A stretch of 64,000 bases of DNA from positions 62,001 through 126,000 of the forward strand of contig CACHOJ010000002.1 in assembly GCA_902581405.1 (NCBI GenBank), given 5' to 3'. Numbering within the stretch: position 1 is the first letter of the stretch; each line of letters starts with the position of its first letter. Below the pieces are notes generated by a model. The model did not search any database. It was not told the origin of the DNA and saw only the letters and a program-made list of their open reading frames with translations. The translations under genes were made by a program, and so were the position numbers. Shown in pieces: positions 23,413 to 28,502 of this stretch. This DNA is from an uncultured Pelagibacteraceae bacterium (lineage in GTDB: Bacteria; Pseudomonadota; Alphaproteobacteria; Pelagibacterales; Pelagibacteraceae).

Positions 23413-26400
23413 ATGAATTTAGATTTATTAGTTCCAGATATTGGAGATTTTGAAAACGTTGAAATAATTGAAGTGCTTGTAAAAAAGGGCGATAAAATCA
23501 ACAAAAATGACCCCGTCGTAACACTGGAGAGCGATAAATCGAGTGTTGAAGTACCATCAAATTATGAGGGTACAGTAGAAAATATAAAAGTTAAAATTGG
23601 TGACAAAGTTTCAAAAGGTGATTTGATATTATCACTATCTTCAGACAATAAGGATGAAGAGGAAAAAAATACTAAAACTTTAAGTGATAAAATCCCACCT
23701 TCAACAGAGAAGTTAATTGAGGAAGCTGAAACTGCTACAAAGCCTGATATCAAAGCTGAAACAAAAATTGTTGAGCCAAAACAGATCAAACAAACTAGAC
23801 TAATAAATGAAGTTAAGATGGTTAGTAGTAATGATGATATCGATCCTGTTGAAACAAAAGAATGGCTAGACTCTTTAAGCGCAGTTCTACAAAATGATGG
23901 TTCAGAAAGAGCACATTTTTTAATAAAACAATTAATTGATCAATCCTATAAAGCCGGATCAAAAATTCCTCATACTCAAACTACTCCATACGTAAATACT
24001 ATACCTCCTGAGGAAGAAAAAAGATCTCCTGGAGATCAAAATATAGAACGTAAGTTAAGATCATTAATAAGATGGAATGCTGCAGCCATGGTAGTGAGAG
24101 CAAATAAAAAATATCCTGAACTTGGTGGGCACATTGGAACATTTGCATCTGCAGCAACATTATATGATGTTGGAATGAATCATTTTTGGAGAGCAAAAAA
24201 TAATAAATTTGGAGGTGATCTAGTATATTTTCAAGGTCATAGTGCACCTGGTATGTATGCGAGGGCTTTTCTTGAAGGAAGATTAAATGAAAAACAATTA
24301 GATAGATTTAGACAAGAGGTAAAAACAGGTGGGCTTTCATCGTATCCTCATCCTTGGCTAATGCCTAGTTTCTGGCAGTTCCCAACTGTTTCAATGGGTA
24401 TTGGTCCAATGTTAGCAATATATCAAGCAAGATTTATGAAATATCTTATTAATAGAGGATTAATTAAAGACGAAGGAAGAAAAGTCTGGGCATTTCTAGG
24501 TGATGGAGAAATGGATGAGCCCGAGTCTCTTGGTGCAATAGGGTTAGCAGCTCGTGAAAATTTAGACAATTTAATATTCGTTGTTAACTGCAATTTACAA
24601 AGATTAGATGGTCCAGTTAGAGGAAATGGAAAAATAATTCAAGAATTAGAGGGAATTTTTAGAGGTGCAGGTTGGAATGTTTTAAAAGTTATTTGGGGTT
24701 CTTATTGGGATACTCTTTTAGCAAATGATAAGACAGGACATTTAGTAAAAATTATGAATGAGACCGTGGATGGTGAATATCAAGCTTTTAAGGCAAGAAA
24801 TGGACTTTATGTTAGAGAGAAGTTTTTTGGCAAATATCCTGAAACAACTGAATTAGTTTCATCGATGTCCGATACTGATATTTGGCGATTAAATAGAGGA
24901 GGTCATGATCCTCATAAAGTTTATGCTGCTTATGATAAAGCGGTCAACCACAAAGGAAGTCCCACAGTTATTATTGCTAAAACGATTAAAGGTTATGGTA
25001 TGGGAAAAAGTGGAGAAAGTGTAAATACTACTCACCAGCAAAAAAAATTAGATGTAGATGATTTGATGTATTACAGGGATAGATTTGATGTTCCTTTAAC
25101 AGATGCCCAAGTCAAAAATATTGAATATTTCAAACCAGACGAAAATTCAGAAGAAATAAAATATTTAAAAAAGAGAAGGATAGAATTGGGTGGTTTTATT
25201 CCAGAAAGAACATCGTACTCAAAACCAATTAAAGCTCCAAGTAAAGATATTTTTGATTTTATGAAGACTTCTACTGGTGAAAAAGAAATGTCTACAACAA
25301 TGGCACTAGTCAGAATGCTAACTAATCTTTTAAGAGATAAAAATGTTGCTCCTAAATTAGTTCCAATTATTCCAGACGAAGCTAGAACTTTTGGAATGGA
25401 AGGTTTCTTTCAAAAAATAGGAATTTATGCTCATGAAGGTCAAAAGTATGAGCCTGAAGATTCTGCGCAACTTTCTTCTTACAGAGAAGAAAAAAGTGGT
25501 CAAGTATTAGAAGAAGGAATTACAGAGGCAGGATCTATGTCATCTTGGATTGCTGCAGGTACTGCTTACACTAATCATGACATTGAAATGATACCAATTT
25601 ATCTTTTCTACTCTATGTTTGGCTTTCAAAGAATTGGAGATTTTGCTTGGGCAGCCGGCGATAGCCAGGCAAGAGGTTTTTTAATTGGCGCAACAGCAGG
25701 AAGAACAACTCTTGCAGGAGAGGGGCTTCAACATCAAGATGGTCATAGTCATTTACTCGCATCTACAATTCCAAACTGTATATCTTACGATCCAACGTTC
25801 CATTATGAATTAGCCGTGATTTTCAGAGAAGGTTTAAGAAGAATGCATGAAAAAAATGAAAATATTTTTTACTATATTACTACAATGAATGAAAATTATT
25901 CTCATCCTGAAATGCCAAAAGATTGTGAAGATGGAATTTTAAAGGGAATGTATAAGATAAAAGAGTCATCAAGTTCAAAAGAAGCTAAGATTCAATTGTT
26001 GGGATCTGGAACAATACTTAGAGAAATGATGGACGCATCAGATATACTCAAAAAAGAATATCAGGTAGACAGTGAAGTTTGGAGTGTTACAAGTTTCAAC
26101 GAGTTAAGAAAAAATGGAATAGAAGTTGAGAGACAAAACTTATTAAACCCCTCAGAAACAAATAAAAAATCGTATATAGAGGAGTGCTTGGGAAAACAGC
26201 AAGGACCTATCCTTGCAGCTACTGATTATATGAGAATTAATGCAGATCAAATAAGATCTTTCACGAAAAAAAGCTTTTATTCTCTTGGTACAGACGGATA
26301 TGGAAGAAGCGATACAAGAAAAAATTTAAGAAGTTTTTTTGAAGTAGATAAAGAACATATAGTTGCCTACAGCCTTAGTGTTTTAGCCAAAGAGCAACTC

Positions 26401-26478
26401 ATCACTTCAAAGTATGCTGAAGATGCCATAAAAAAGTATAATATTGATAAAAATAAAACTATGCCAACAAAAATGTAA
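23413..26478 (+). CDS. aceE: Pyruvate dehydrogenase E1 (homodimeric type) with N-terminal lipoyl domain
   Basis: A 1021-residue fusion. Residues 1-75 or so are a complete biotinyl/lipoyl domain: LVPDIGDFENVEIIEV with the lipoyl-accepting Lys42 in ESDKSSVEVP. An acidic Lys/Glu/Thr linker follows to about 138. The rest (about 885 residues) matches the whole AceE-type thiamine-diphosphate E1: ETKEWLDSL, HIGTFASAATLY, GDGEMDEPESLG...N as the ThDP/Mg motif, and QHQDGHSHL-type sequence near 775. E1 decarboxylates pyruvate and reductively acetylates a lipoyl group. E. coli AceE (about 887 aa) has no lipoyl domain. The E2 gene starts on the next base and lacks lipoyl domains. Confidence 0.95.
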   Translation: MNLDLLVPDIGDFENVEIIEVLVKKGDKINKNDPVVTLESDKSSVEVPSNYEGTVENIKVKIGDKVSKGDLILSLSSDNKDEEEKNTKTLSDKIPPSTEKLIEEAETATKPDIKAETKIVEPKQIKQTRLINEVKMVSSNDDIDPVETKEWLDSLSAVLQNDGSERAHFLIKQLIDQSYKAGSKIPHTQTTPYVNTIPPEEEKRSPGDQNIERKLRSLIRWNAAAMVVRANKKYPELGGHIGTFASAATLYDVGMNHFWRAKNNKFGGDLVYFQGHSAPGMYARAFLEGRLNEKQLDRFRQEVKTGGLSSYPHPWLMPSFWQFPTVSMGIGPMLAIYQARFMKYLINRGLIKDEGRKVWAFLGDGEMDEPESLGAIGLAARENLDNLIFVVNCNLQRLDGPVRGNGKIIQELEGIFRGAGWNVLKVIWGSYWDTLLANDKTGHLVKIMNETVDGEYQAFKARNGLYVREKFFGKYPETTELVSSMSDTDIWRLNRGGHDPHKVYAAYDKAVNHKGSPTVIIAKTIKGYGMGKSGESVNTTHQQKKLDVDDLMYYRDRFDVPLTDAQVKNIEYFKPDENSEEIKYLKKRRIELGGFIPERTSYSKPIKAPSKDIFDFMKTSTGEKEMSTTMALVRMLTNLLRDKNVAPKLVPIIPDEARTFGMEGFFQKIGIYAHEGQKYEPEDSAQLSSYREEKSGQVLEEGITEAGSMSSWIAAGTAYTNHDIEMIPIYLFYSMFGFQRIGDFAWAAGDSQARGFLIGATAGRTTLAGEGLQHQDGHSHLLASTIPNCISYDPTFHYELAVIFREGLRRMHEKNENIFYYITTMNENYSHPEMPKDCEDGILKGMYKIKESSSSKEAKIQLLGSGTILREMMDASDILKKEYQVDSEVWSVTSFNELRKNGIEVERQNLLNPSETNKKSYIEECLGKQQGPILAATDYMRINADQIRSFTKKSFYSLGTDGYGRSDTRKNLRSFFEVDKEHIVAYSLSVLAKEQLITSKYAEDAIKKYNIDKNKTMPTKM

Positions 26479-27405
26479 ATGTCTGATCAATCCATCAAAA
26501 CATCTGCAAGTCCAAAAGTTAGGAAGTTTGCAAGAGAATTAGGTGTTGATATAAATAAAGTTAAAGGTTCAGCAAGATTAGGTAGAATTATAGAAAAAGA
26601 TTTAAAAGAATTTGTATCATCTAAAATTAATCAAACATATGATCCAAAAGATAGTAAAAATGAAAAAGTAATCAAAAGCGAATACCAACATTCAGATTTT
26701 GGAGAAATTGAAATTAAAGATATCCCTAGAGTAAAAAAAATTGCTGCACCCCATTTAGTCAACTCTTGGACCAACATTCCACATGTAACAAATCATGACG
26801 AAGCTGATATCACTGAGATGGAAGAGTTTAGAAGTTCACTTAAAGATAATTACTCCGGAGAAAAAATAAAAATTACTCCACTAGCATTTATTATAAAAGC
26901 ATTGGTAATATCACTAAAAAAATTTCCATCTTTCAATTCATCAATTGATGATATTGAAAATGGTAAAATTACATTTAAAAAGTATTTTCACATCGGCATC
27001 GCAGTTGATACCCAACATGGACTTATGGTTCCCAAGATTAGAGACGCCAATCAAAAAGATATAAAAGAGTTAAGTAAGGACTTAAAAAAAGTAAGTGATG
27101 ATTGCAGAAATTTAAAAATTGATAAAAAAGAATTTTTTGGAGGATCAATTACTATTACTAGTTTAGGTGGAATTGGTGGATCATTCTTTACACCAATAAT
27201 TAATTTTCCTGAAGTTGCCATCCTTGGAATTGGCAGAAGCTACAAAAAACAGGTATTTATAGATGGAAAATTTGTTCCAAGAACTATGTTACCTTTATCA
27301 CTCTCATATGATCATCGAATTATAGACGGAGCTGAGGCTGCAAAATTTAATAATGAATTAAAAGATAATTTAGGAGCAAATTTTGCTTACAACCTAAGTA
27401 AATGA
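26479..27405 (+). CDS. aceF: Dihydrolipoyl acetyltransferase E2 without lipoyl domain
   Basis: The acetyltransferase core of the pyruvate dehydrogenase complex, 308 residues. It begins directly with the peripheral subunit-binding domain (SPKVRKFARELGVDINKVKG, about residues 11-30, then RLGRIIEKDLKEF). After a short linker comes the catalytic CoA-acyltransferase domain with PHVTNHDEADITEME and the active-site SYDHRIIDGAEAAKF near 282. No lipoyl domain precedes the binding domain, whereas normal E2 proteins have one to three. The ATG abuts the aceE stop (TAAATG) and its end overlaps the next gene by 4 bp. The missing domain is found on E1 instead. E3 is not in the window. Confidence 0.93.
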   Translation: MSDQSIKTSASPKVRKFARELGVDINKVKGSARLGRIIEKDLKEFVSSKINQTYDPKDSKNEKVIKSEYQHSDFGEIEIKDIPRVKKIAAPHLVNSWTNIPHVTNHDEADITEMEEFRSSLKDNYSGEKIKITPLAFIIKALVISLKKFPSFNSSIDDIENGKITFKKYFHIGIAVDTQHGLMVPKIRDANQKDIKELSKDLKKVSDDCRNLKIDKKEFFGGSITITSLGGIGGSFFTPIINFPEVAILGIGRSYKKQVFIDGKFVPRTMLPLSLSYDHRIIDGAEAAKFNNELKDNLGANFAYNLSK

Positions 27406-28502
27406 TTACAAAAATTGATATATTACCAGATGATCTTCAAGTCCATTTTAGTGGAGAAAACTCAGAAATTTTTCCTAATATTTGGTTGAGAGATCATGCA
27501 AAAGATGAGCAAAATTGGGATAAAAGGTCTAGTCAAAGAAAGACTTTTACAGCATCTTTAGATCTAAATTTAAAAATAAAAAACGCTGAAATATTAGAAA
27601 ATGGCAAATATTTGAGCATTGCTTGGCCTGATCTAGAAAAGCCAGTCCAATATTCATTTGAATTTCTAATCAATAACAAAATAGATAAAAAAAGAGAAAC
27701 AAAATCAAAATTAAAAATTTGGGGATCAAATGAAATTCACCAAGAGATATTTGTAGATTATAATTCTATCTTATCAAATGATGGATTTAAAAACTTTTTA
27801 AAAAGTCTACATACTTATGGTTTTTTAGTAATTAAAAATTGCGAAACAAACTTAAAATGTGTTGAAAAAATTGCTAATAAAATTGGATATGTAAGAAATT
27901 CTATATTCGGAGGACTGTGGAGTTTTGAGTCTGACGAAAATAAGGCTGACAGCGCTTATACTCAAGAAGAGTTAAGACCACATACAGATTCGACATATAG
28001 TAATGATGCTCCAGGGTTACAATTATTATTATGTTGTGATTATGATGCTAAGGGTGGTGACTCAATTATGGTTGATGGATTAAAGATTGCTAAAACAATC
28101 AAAAAAGAAGATCCACAAATGTATGATTTGCTTACAAAAATAAATGTAAAGGGCAATTACATTGGTGATGGAGTTTTTCTAGAAGCTGAAAGACCAATAT
28201 TTAAATTAAATAAAAATAAAGAAATTACTCAAGTGAGTTTTAACAATTACGATCGAGCACCGTTTAGATTTGAAAAGGATTTAACTTTAAAGTTTTATGA
28301 AGCTATTAAAAAATTTGATCTACTTGCTAATAATAAAGACTACCAATGGAGACATATACTAAAACCTGGAGAGCTTTTAATATTTAATAATTGGCGAATA
28401 CTTCATGGAAGAGGATCATTTAGTGGAGTAAGAAAAATGTCTGGATGTTATATTAACAAAGAAGATTTTGATAGTTCTTGTAAGATGAACGGAATAAATT
28501 AA
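27402..28502 (+). CDS. Gamma-butyrobetaine hydroxylase-like 2-oxoglutarate dioxygenase
   Basis: A 366-residue Fe(II)/2-oxoglutarate oxygenase. The N-terminal GBBH-like (DUF971) domain contains FPNIWLRDHAKDEQNWDKRS near residue 24. The C-terminal TauD-type domain has the iron ligands HTD in LRPHTDSTYSNDAPGLQLL near 195 and the distal His and Arg in RILHGRGSF near 348. The two-domain order is that of gamma-butyrobetaine and trimethyllysine hydroxylases of carnitine synthesis. Which substrate is used, or whether another quaternary amine is, cannot be read. It overlaps the E2 gene by 4 bp (ATGA), so it is translated with pyruvate dehydrogenase. Confidence 0.85.
   Translation: MITKIDILPDDLQVHFSGENSEIFPNIWLRDHAKDEQNWDKRSSQRKTFTASLDLNLKIKNAEILENGKYLSIAWPDLEKPVQYSFEFLINNKIDKKRETKSKLKIWGSNEIHQEIFVDYNSILSNDGFKNFLKSLHTYGFLVIKNCETNLKCVEKIANKIGYVRNSIFGGLWSFESDENKADSAYTQEELRPHTDSTYSNDAPGLQLLLCCDYDAKGGDSIMVDGLKIAKTIKKEDPQMYDLLTKINVKGNYIGDGVFLEAERPIFKLNKNKEITQVSFNNYDRAPFRFEKDLTLKFYEAIKKFDLLANNKDYQWRHILKPGELLIFNNWRILHGRGSFSGVRKMSGCYINKEDFDSSCKMNGIN

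Follow-up and report, generated by a model that had tools for sequence, protein, structure and literature searches.

The window analysed here, a stretch of 64,000 nucleotides from the genome of an uncultured Pelagibacteraceae bacterium (contig CACHOJ010000002.1), encodes a pyruvate dehydrogenase (E1) with a lipoyl domain of its own beside a dihydrolipoyl acetyltransferase (E2) that has none. This arrangement was confirmed. From sequence comparison, we conclude that the pyruvate dehydrogenase complex (PDH) of this cell very probably carries its swinging lipoyl arm on E1 instead of E2. The two genes and their parts lie as follows.

23413-26478, plus strand: E1 gene, 1021 amino acids; lipoyl domain, linker and AceE-type homodimeric pyruvate dehydrogenase E1 (open reading frame, domain searches)
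23428-23634, plus strand: N-terminal lipoyl domain of E1, residues 6-74 (PF00364, PDB relatives, kept lysine)
23536-23538, plus strand: codon of Lys42, predicted lipoylation site in the motif ESDKSS (invariant in the alignment of relatives)
23647-23832, plus strand: linker from the lipoyl domain to the E1 body, about residues 79-140, predicted mostly disordered (low predicted local distance difference test score, pLDDT; alignment variability)
23698-23733, plus strand: short conserved predicted helix in the E1 linker, about residues 96-107 (alignment, linker comparison, structure model)
23833-23958, plus strand: E1 N-terminal segment, residues 141-182, matching the E1 chain of PDB 9h1n (PDB sequence match)
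26479-27405, plus strand: E2 gene, 308 amino acids; lipoyl-less dihydrolipoyl acetyltransferase (open reading frame, domain searches)
26506-26604, plus strand: peripheral subunit-binding domain of E2, residues 10-42 (E3_binding PF02817, 45 bits)
26716-27372, plus strand: catalytic acetyltransferase domain of E2, residues 80-298, with DHRIIDG (2-oxoacid_dh PF00198, E 1.7e-76 for the whole protein)

The initial annotation had proposed a full lipoyl domain with Lys42 ahead of a complete AceE-type E1, and the profile scores bore this out. Biotin_lipoyl PF00364 matched residues 6-74 at E 1.6e-19 with 69.9 bits (gathering cut-off 22.1), the lysine standing in the DK turn of that family, and aceE TIGR00759 spanned residues 139-1019 with 1440.8 bits against a curated cut-off of 859.9, which places a whole AceE of the homodimeric type behind the lipoyl domain. 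The exception model AKGDH_not_PDH gave 1294.5, under its cut-off of 1408.3. Judged by its family and its E2 neighbour, E1 would act as a pyruvate dehydrogenase. Its lipoyl region is AceF-like (TIGR01348, 94.2 bits), with E2 lipoyl domains and 1gjx among its PDB relatives; NF008854, the model of E1-beta with a lipoyl domain, matched the region weakly (22 bits, far under the cut-off), and the enzyme falls outside the E1-beta-lipoyl type of PDH because its E1 is of the AceE type. An AlphaFold model of the full E1, calculated from a shallow alignment and used for strand order and the disordered linker only, places strands 34-39 and 44-48 on either side of Lys42, with pLDDT below 50 at residues 79-97 and 109-142 and a helix at 96-107.

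E2 starts at the subunit-binding domain, as had been claimed. A profile search of the 308 residues detected PF02817 and PF00198 and no lipoyl domain, and there is no open frame upstream to supply one. A lipoyl domain hidden 5' of the E2 start was ruled out by the E1 stop codon, which directly abuts the E2 ATG, and one concealed by a wrongly called start by the length of the open frame, which is 308 codons. The AceF model TIGR01348 aligns over model positions 283-580 only, and E2 scores under the curated AceF cut-offs (334 against 552 for TIGR01348, 313 against 722 for NF008814); of the AceF-type architecture the binding and catalytic domains are present and the one to three N-terminal lipoyl domains are absent. 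NF008815, a 308-position model of E2 without a lipoyl domain, aligns at 3-299 with 199 bits (cut-off 378). An artefact of one genome is excluded because the same E1/E2 pair occurs in nine other genomes, with E1 95-99% and E2 88-97% identical; one of the nine is G185, whose E1 lipoyl domain occupies its own frame.

We searched the window's genome (1.12 Mb, 33 contigs, 78% complete) for another carrier of the arm. PF00364 gave three matches above the cut-off, namely E1, SucB and a biotin carrier protein, and two more far below it. SucB (448 amino acids; NF004309, 572 bits) has the one other lipoyl-type domain besides that of E1. The third match was rejected as a stand-alone lipoyl protein, having a biotin-type site (EAMKTM) and adjoining an AccC-like frame; its best NCBIfam model is BCCP, with 100.7 bits under a cut-off of 115.2. 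E2 catalytic domains number two, those of the present E2 and of SucB, and the profile search detected no second full-length E2 for pyruvate dehydrogenase in this 78% complete genome. The single dihydrolipoyl dehydrogenase (E3, Lpd), which the initial annotation had recommended inspecting, is encoded directly downstream of sucB; it has 464 amino acids, matches TIGR01350 from residue 4 and has no lipoyl domain, so the genome is not of the PDH type with a lipoyl domain on E3. E1_dh was found above the cut-off in frames of 978, 639 and 665 amino acids and below it in one of 283; the first is SucA, and length and weak score suggest DXS and transketolase for the other two. SucA is a separate frame both here and in 16 genomes (955-998 amino acids), with no E2-E1 fusion of the actinobacterial kind.

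Since the window's genome is incomplete, we extended the search to nine relatives with a lipoyl-less E2 that are 90-99% complete: G170, G144, G088 (95%), G169, G121 (94%) and G074 (96%), all of the window clade, and G146, G056 and G017 (99%). The first six and G017 have the same three PF00364 matches, judged by frame length only, and no further one passes the cut-off. Both G146 and G056 show an extra borderline match in a 447-residue frame (about 22-23 bits against 22.1) and another under the cut-off; they also contain an E1-alpha-like frame, of 329 amino acids in G146 and 322 in G056. In all nine, the second E2 match is only a frame of 441-451 residues, SucB-like by length and lipoyl match, and the E3 match only a frame of 470-478 residues without a PF00364 match. 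The separate full-length E2 with lipoyl domains, named by the initial annotation as the observation that would overturn its proposal, was thus found neither in the window's genome nor in the nine relatives examined. Of the genes for making lipoyl groups, lipB was detected in 11 of 14 genomes, and lipA passed its cut-off in the same number.

The lipoyl lysine is kept in every first E1 domain (160/160), every second E1 domain (5/5) and every first E2 domain (130/130), and in no second E2 domain (0/4). Within the window clade, the ratio of nonsynonymous to synonymous substitution rates (dN/dS) of the E1 lipoyl domain is 0.018 at a dS of 0.9 (33 of 36 pairs after a divergence filter; the pairs are not independent), compared with 0.016 for the E1 core and 0.062 for the catalytic part of E2. 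The corresponding value in the G017 clade is 0.06 (11 of 28 pairs). For the 100 genomes with one domain per subunit, dN/dS was 0.129 for the E1 domain and 0.142 for the E2 domain, with dS saturated. The substitution pattern indicates that the E1 lipoyl domain of the window clade is under purifying selection, without any E2 arm as backup.

The initial annotation had also called for a search for lipoyl-AceE fusions and lipoyl-less E2s across Pelagibacterales, and both were found there. An order-wide search found E1 in 135 of 197 genomes, all of them in one family (f1), recognised as Pelagibacteraceae by its named hits, and 134 of the 135 loci were classified (G140 was left out). The E1 lipoyl domain is present in 132 of the 134; the exceptions are G185, in which it lies in a frame of its own with none on E2, and G156, in which E1 is cut at a contig end and E2 has one lipoyl domain. 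The E2 domain is absent from 25 of the 134. Expressed as lipoyl domains on E1/E2, 100 loci are 1/1, 24 are 1/0, four are 2/1, three are 1/2 and one is 2/2. The 3' end of E2 is cut in G194, G161, G164, G032 and G166, where an N-terminal domain would still show. At none of the 134 loci did we see an intact E1 that lacks the domain while its E2 neighbour has one. A search of named relatives, covering the best 80 of at least 589, gave a similar picture: the E1 lipoyl domain occurs in 33 of 35 Pelagibacteraceae contigs (one partial at a contig end), the other two being cut by contig ends, and the E2 lacks a lipoyl domain in 11 of the 35. Five of these 35 share their E1 core with a genome of the 134-locus set.

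Outside the family, the E1 lipoyl domain was found in none of the 45 named loci among those best 80 relatives (L315-L359), nor in any of 14 loci that the searches of the class and the phylum supplied (L265-L279 except L271, a Pelagibacteraceae paralogue). In the 45 loci, E2 has a lipoyl domain wherever it was found (39 loci) and E1 has none; 16 of the 45 contain a frame of 560-640 amino acids with one N-terminal lipoyl domain, a putative E3. The class search with E1 matched 11 of 385 genomes, six of them outside the family, and the phylum search 161 of 398. Among the matches listed, those of the phylum search outside the family start at query residue 107 or later. Because a detached lipoyl domain might go unnoticed in such matches, we fetched the DNA upstream of 20 listed phylum rows with long frames (942-1654 amino acids), with the window's E1 as positive control, and found a lipoyl domain in 0 of 20.

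Some loci depart from the common layouts. In G185 (L017), the E1 lipoyl domain occupies a separate 102-residue frame, owing to a sequencing error or to a genuine split of the gene. Two tandem lipoyl domains are present on E1 in five genomes: G097 (L247), G032 (L251), G158 (L252), G007 (L253) and G001 (L254). The second lipoyl-like domain on E2 lacks the lysine in all four cases, with E in three and N in one (G097, L247; G109, L248; G054, L249; G009, L250), and is thus a pseudo-lipoyl domain that the arm has retained.

How the arm came to be on E1 was addressed with trees. In a tree of the E1 body without its lipoyl part (179 rows, 15 outside the family), Pelagibacteraceae form one clade, so no more than one gain of the E1 domain has to be assumed; for the E2 domain, nine changes of state are needed. 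A 52-row IQ-TREE again gave nine changes of E2 state, at least seven of them forced by supported branches. Outside the family, E2 carries a lipoyl domain in 39 of 39 cases found in named loci and in 13 of 13 in other loci. The E2 of the window begins with MSDQSIKT followed by SASPKVRK, resembling the MSDQEIKV start of a full E2, and the N-termini in other loss lineages differ (MSKKDLLKIVPASPK, MTLDDNTFLMPASPK, MNEKKRVPASPK, MSQIIHASPK and others); they look like separate in-frame deletions. In a tree of 121 lipoyl domains, the E1 and E2 domains of the family group together, apart from outside E2 and E3-like domains (Shimodaira-Hasegawa-like approximate likelihood ratio test, SH-aLRT, 98), and the donor of the E1 domain would accordingly be sought within the complex. 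The lipoyl domain was probably copied to E1 once and then deleted repeatedly from E2. The initial annotation had described a complete transfer from E2 to E1. For the window's genome, the location it gave, on E1 and not on E2, stands, and E3 has no lipoyl domain either; a single move does not, because the E1 domain is family-wide, most members have one domain per subunit, and several lineages, that of the window among them, have lost the one on E2.

The relocation may be understood from the place where the arm is anchored. Residues 141-182 of E1 align to positions 6-47 of the E1 chain in PDB 9h1n, which is 49 residues long, and the 66-residue E2 chain of the same entry matches the binding domain of the present E2; PDB 4qoy likewise holds both. 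According to an excerpt of PMC6270654, the main partner of the N-terminal region of Escherichia coli E1 is the peripheral subunit-binding domain of E2. The ordinary E2 is described in an excerpt of PMC8421416 as a succession of lipoyl domains, binding domain and catalytic domain with flexible linkers between them, and the order on the window's E1 is lipoyl domain, linker, predicted E2-docking segment. The pivot of the arm would hardly move from its place in an ordinary E2, since the segment by which E. coli E1 binds the peripheral domain is retained, and this would explain why relocation of the arm is tolerated. Two things would change: positions without bound E1 would have no arm, each E1 dimer bringing two, and a single E1 dimer could accomplish the first acetyl transfer internally.

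We propose the following course of events. An E2-type lipoyl domain would have been added once to E1 in Pelagibacteraceae, as the trees suggest; with two arms present, the E2 copy would have become dispensable and been deleted separately in several lineages. In the resulting complex, Lys42 would be lipoylated by LipB and LipA, and the E1 active site would acetylate the arm borne on its own dimer. The N-terminal segment of E1 would dock on the subunit-binding domain of E2 and anchor the arm nearly as in a normal E2, so that it would still reach the E2 catalytic domain and a neighbouring E3, the latter presumably common to PDH and 2-oxoglutarate dehydrogenase (ODH). The number of arms would equal the number of bound E1 chains. 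Taken as a whole, namely that the E1 arm is the sole one, is charged on its own dimer and is tethered at the E1:E2 interface, and that its gain ratcheted at least seven losses on E2, we consider this account likely. On this account the number of arms would depend on E1 occupancy, and E1 in isolation should catalyse its own reductive acetylation.

Several observations weigh against this account. Change counts on trees cannot separate E2 loss from regain, the 73-column lipoyl tree is poorly resolved with neither the E1 nor the E2 domains in one clean clade, and the two subunits may have exchanged lipoyl domains or E2 may have regained its own. We favoured loss over regain because E2s outside the family have the domain and the N-termini resemble separate deletions. 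The window's genome, 78% complete, yielded neither a lipA nor a lipB match above the cut-off; the search also failed to find lipB in G144 and G074 and lipA in G170 and G056, though close relatives have each. As sister genomes contain every gene that is missing here, we attribute the gaps to incomplete genomes. The AlphaFold model of the full E1 is poor, with a mean pLDDT of 55.9. The stretch from the lysine to the E1 segment is longer where E2 has no lipoyl domain (median 100, n=33, vs 89, n=126; five rows skipped), and this difference is not significant, with a median p of 0.25 (range 0.125-1) in a kinship-corrected test. A longer E1 linker as compensation for the loss of the E2 arm was therefore discarded, the difference having the right direction and no significance after the correction. 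As a separate observation, the otherwise variable linker contains a conserved short segment, reading IPPSTEKLIEEAE in the window and predicted to form a helix, in much of the window's genus and in some others.

Other explanations of the locus leave the arm elsewhere. The E1 lipoyl domain might be accessory or regulatory, with PDH borrowing its arm from SucB in a hybrid complex; apart from E1, SucB alone was found to have a lipoyl-type domain in the window's genome, and a PDH/ODH hybrid complex is described for Corynebacterium glutamicum in an excerpt of PMC7568260. We consider this quite unlikely, because the E1 lipoyl region resembles AceF, keeps its lysine in 160 of 160 cases and is under purifying selection, and because SucA is a frame by itself, unlike the actinobacterial fusion. 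The chance that a lipoyl-bearing E2 or E3, or a stand-alone lipoyl protein, lies in an unsequenced part of the genome appears very small: although the assembly is 78% complete in 33 contigs, and G146 and G056 add a borderline PF00364 match and an E1-alpha-like frame, the relatives of 90-99% completeness such as G017, G074, G088 and G121 contained only E1, SucB-like and biotin-carrier-like matches over the cut-off, with two E2s and one E3. A misjoined E1 next to a truncated E2, produced by assembly or gene calling, has hardly any probability at all. Its one support is G185, with lipoyl domain and E1 in different frames, whereas it requires an identical error across many separate assemblies, given an E1 lipoyl domain in 132/134 and 33/35 and a lipoyl-less E2 in 25/134 and 11/35 loci. 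An arm on E1 thus remains by far the most probable reading for this complex.

The gene after E2 encodes a TauD-family dioxygenase (27402-28502) that overlaps E2 by ATGA and scores 276.4 against the trimethyllysine dioxygenase cut-off of 268.3. A homologue stands next after E2 in 7 of the 35 named relatives (L280-L284, L294, L295), and in most of the others a DMT-transporter homologue follows directly. Some Pelagibacteraceae have a second AceE-like E1 of 887-902 amino acids without a lipoyl domain (L255, L256, L257, L258), for which no E2 was found in the fetched stretch; L257 passes the aceE cut-off and falls short of the one set for the AKGDH exception model. In family f2, genomes G002 and G004 each have one E2 match (415 and 428 amino acids, respectively) and one E1_dh match of SucA length.

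The swinging arm borne by E2 is the classic model of substrate channelling. Pelagibacteraceae offer a natural series with the arm on both subunits, on E1 only, or with two on E1, which suits questions about the attachment point and number of arms. SAR11 is among the most abundant bacterial groups in the ocean, as stated in an excerpt of PMC10030771, and in members of it the arm that serves central carbon metabolism appears to be borne by E1.

Several known complexes resemble the present one in part. PDH of E. coli has the same AceE-type E1 (PDB 1l8a, 1148 bits), the same E2 catalytic and binding domains (7b9k) and an E1 N-terminal segment meeting the E2 binding domain. It differs by three lipoyl domains on its E2, as given in an excerpt of PMC8421416, and none on its E1, whereas the window has one on E1 and none on E2. 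The Neisseria P64K type shares an extra lipoyl domain on a peripheral enzyme, PDB 5u25 being such an E3, and differs in having lipoyl domains on both E2 and E3. The Zymomonas-type E2 keeps a lipoyl domain. The E1 of that type is alpha2beta2, with the domain on E1-beta (NCBIfam NF008854), unlike the AceE-type E1 of the window; common to both is a lipoyl domain at the N terminus of an E1 chain, which an excerpt of PMC7873978 cites for Zymomonas mobilis, naming PdhA in its text and E1-beta in the cited title. The initial annotation was right that E1-beta lipoyl domains are known. It further knew of no described complete transfer with an AceE-type homodimeric E1, and we found no open-access paper on a lipoyl domain of an AceE-type E1, or on one as the sole arm on E1. 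An arm off E2 is, however, on record for Mycoplasma hyopneumoniae, whose PDH has the lipoyl domain on E3 (PdhD), lipoylated at Lys42, and not on E2, according to the same excerpt of PMC7873978. The likeness extends to the acetyltransferase, since the window's E2 aligns end to end with the lipoyl-less model NF008815. Whereas PDH with a lipoyl domain off E2 was already known from the E3 of M. hyopneumoniae, the new element in the window is an AceE-type E1 as the lipoyl carrier.

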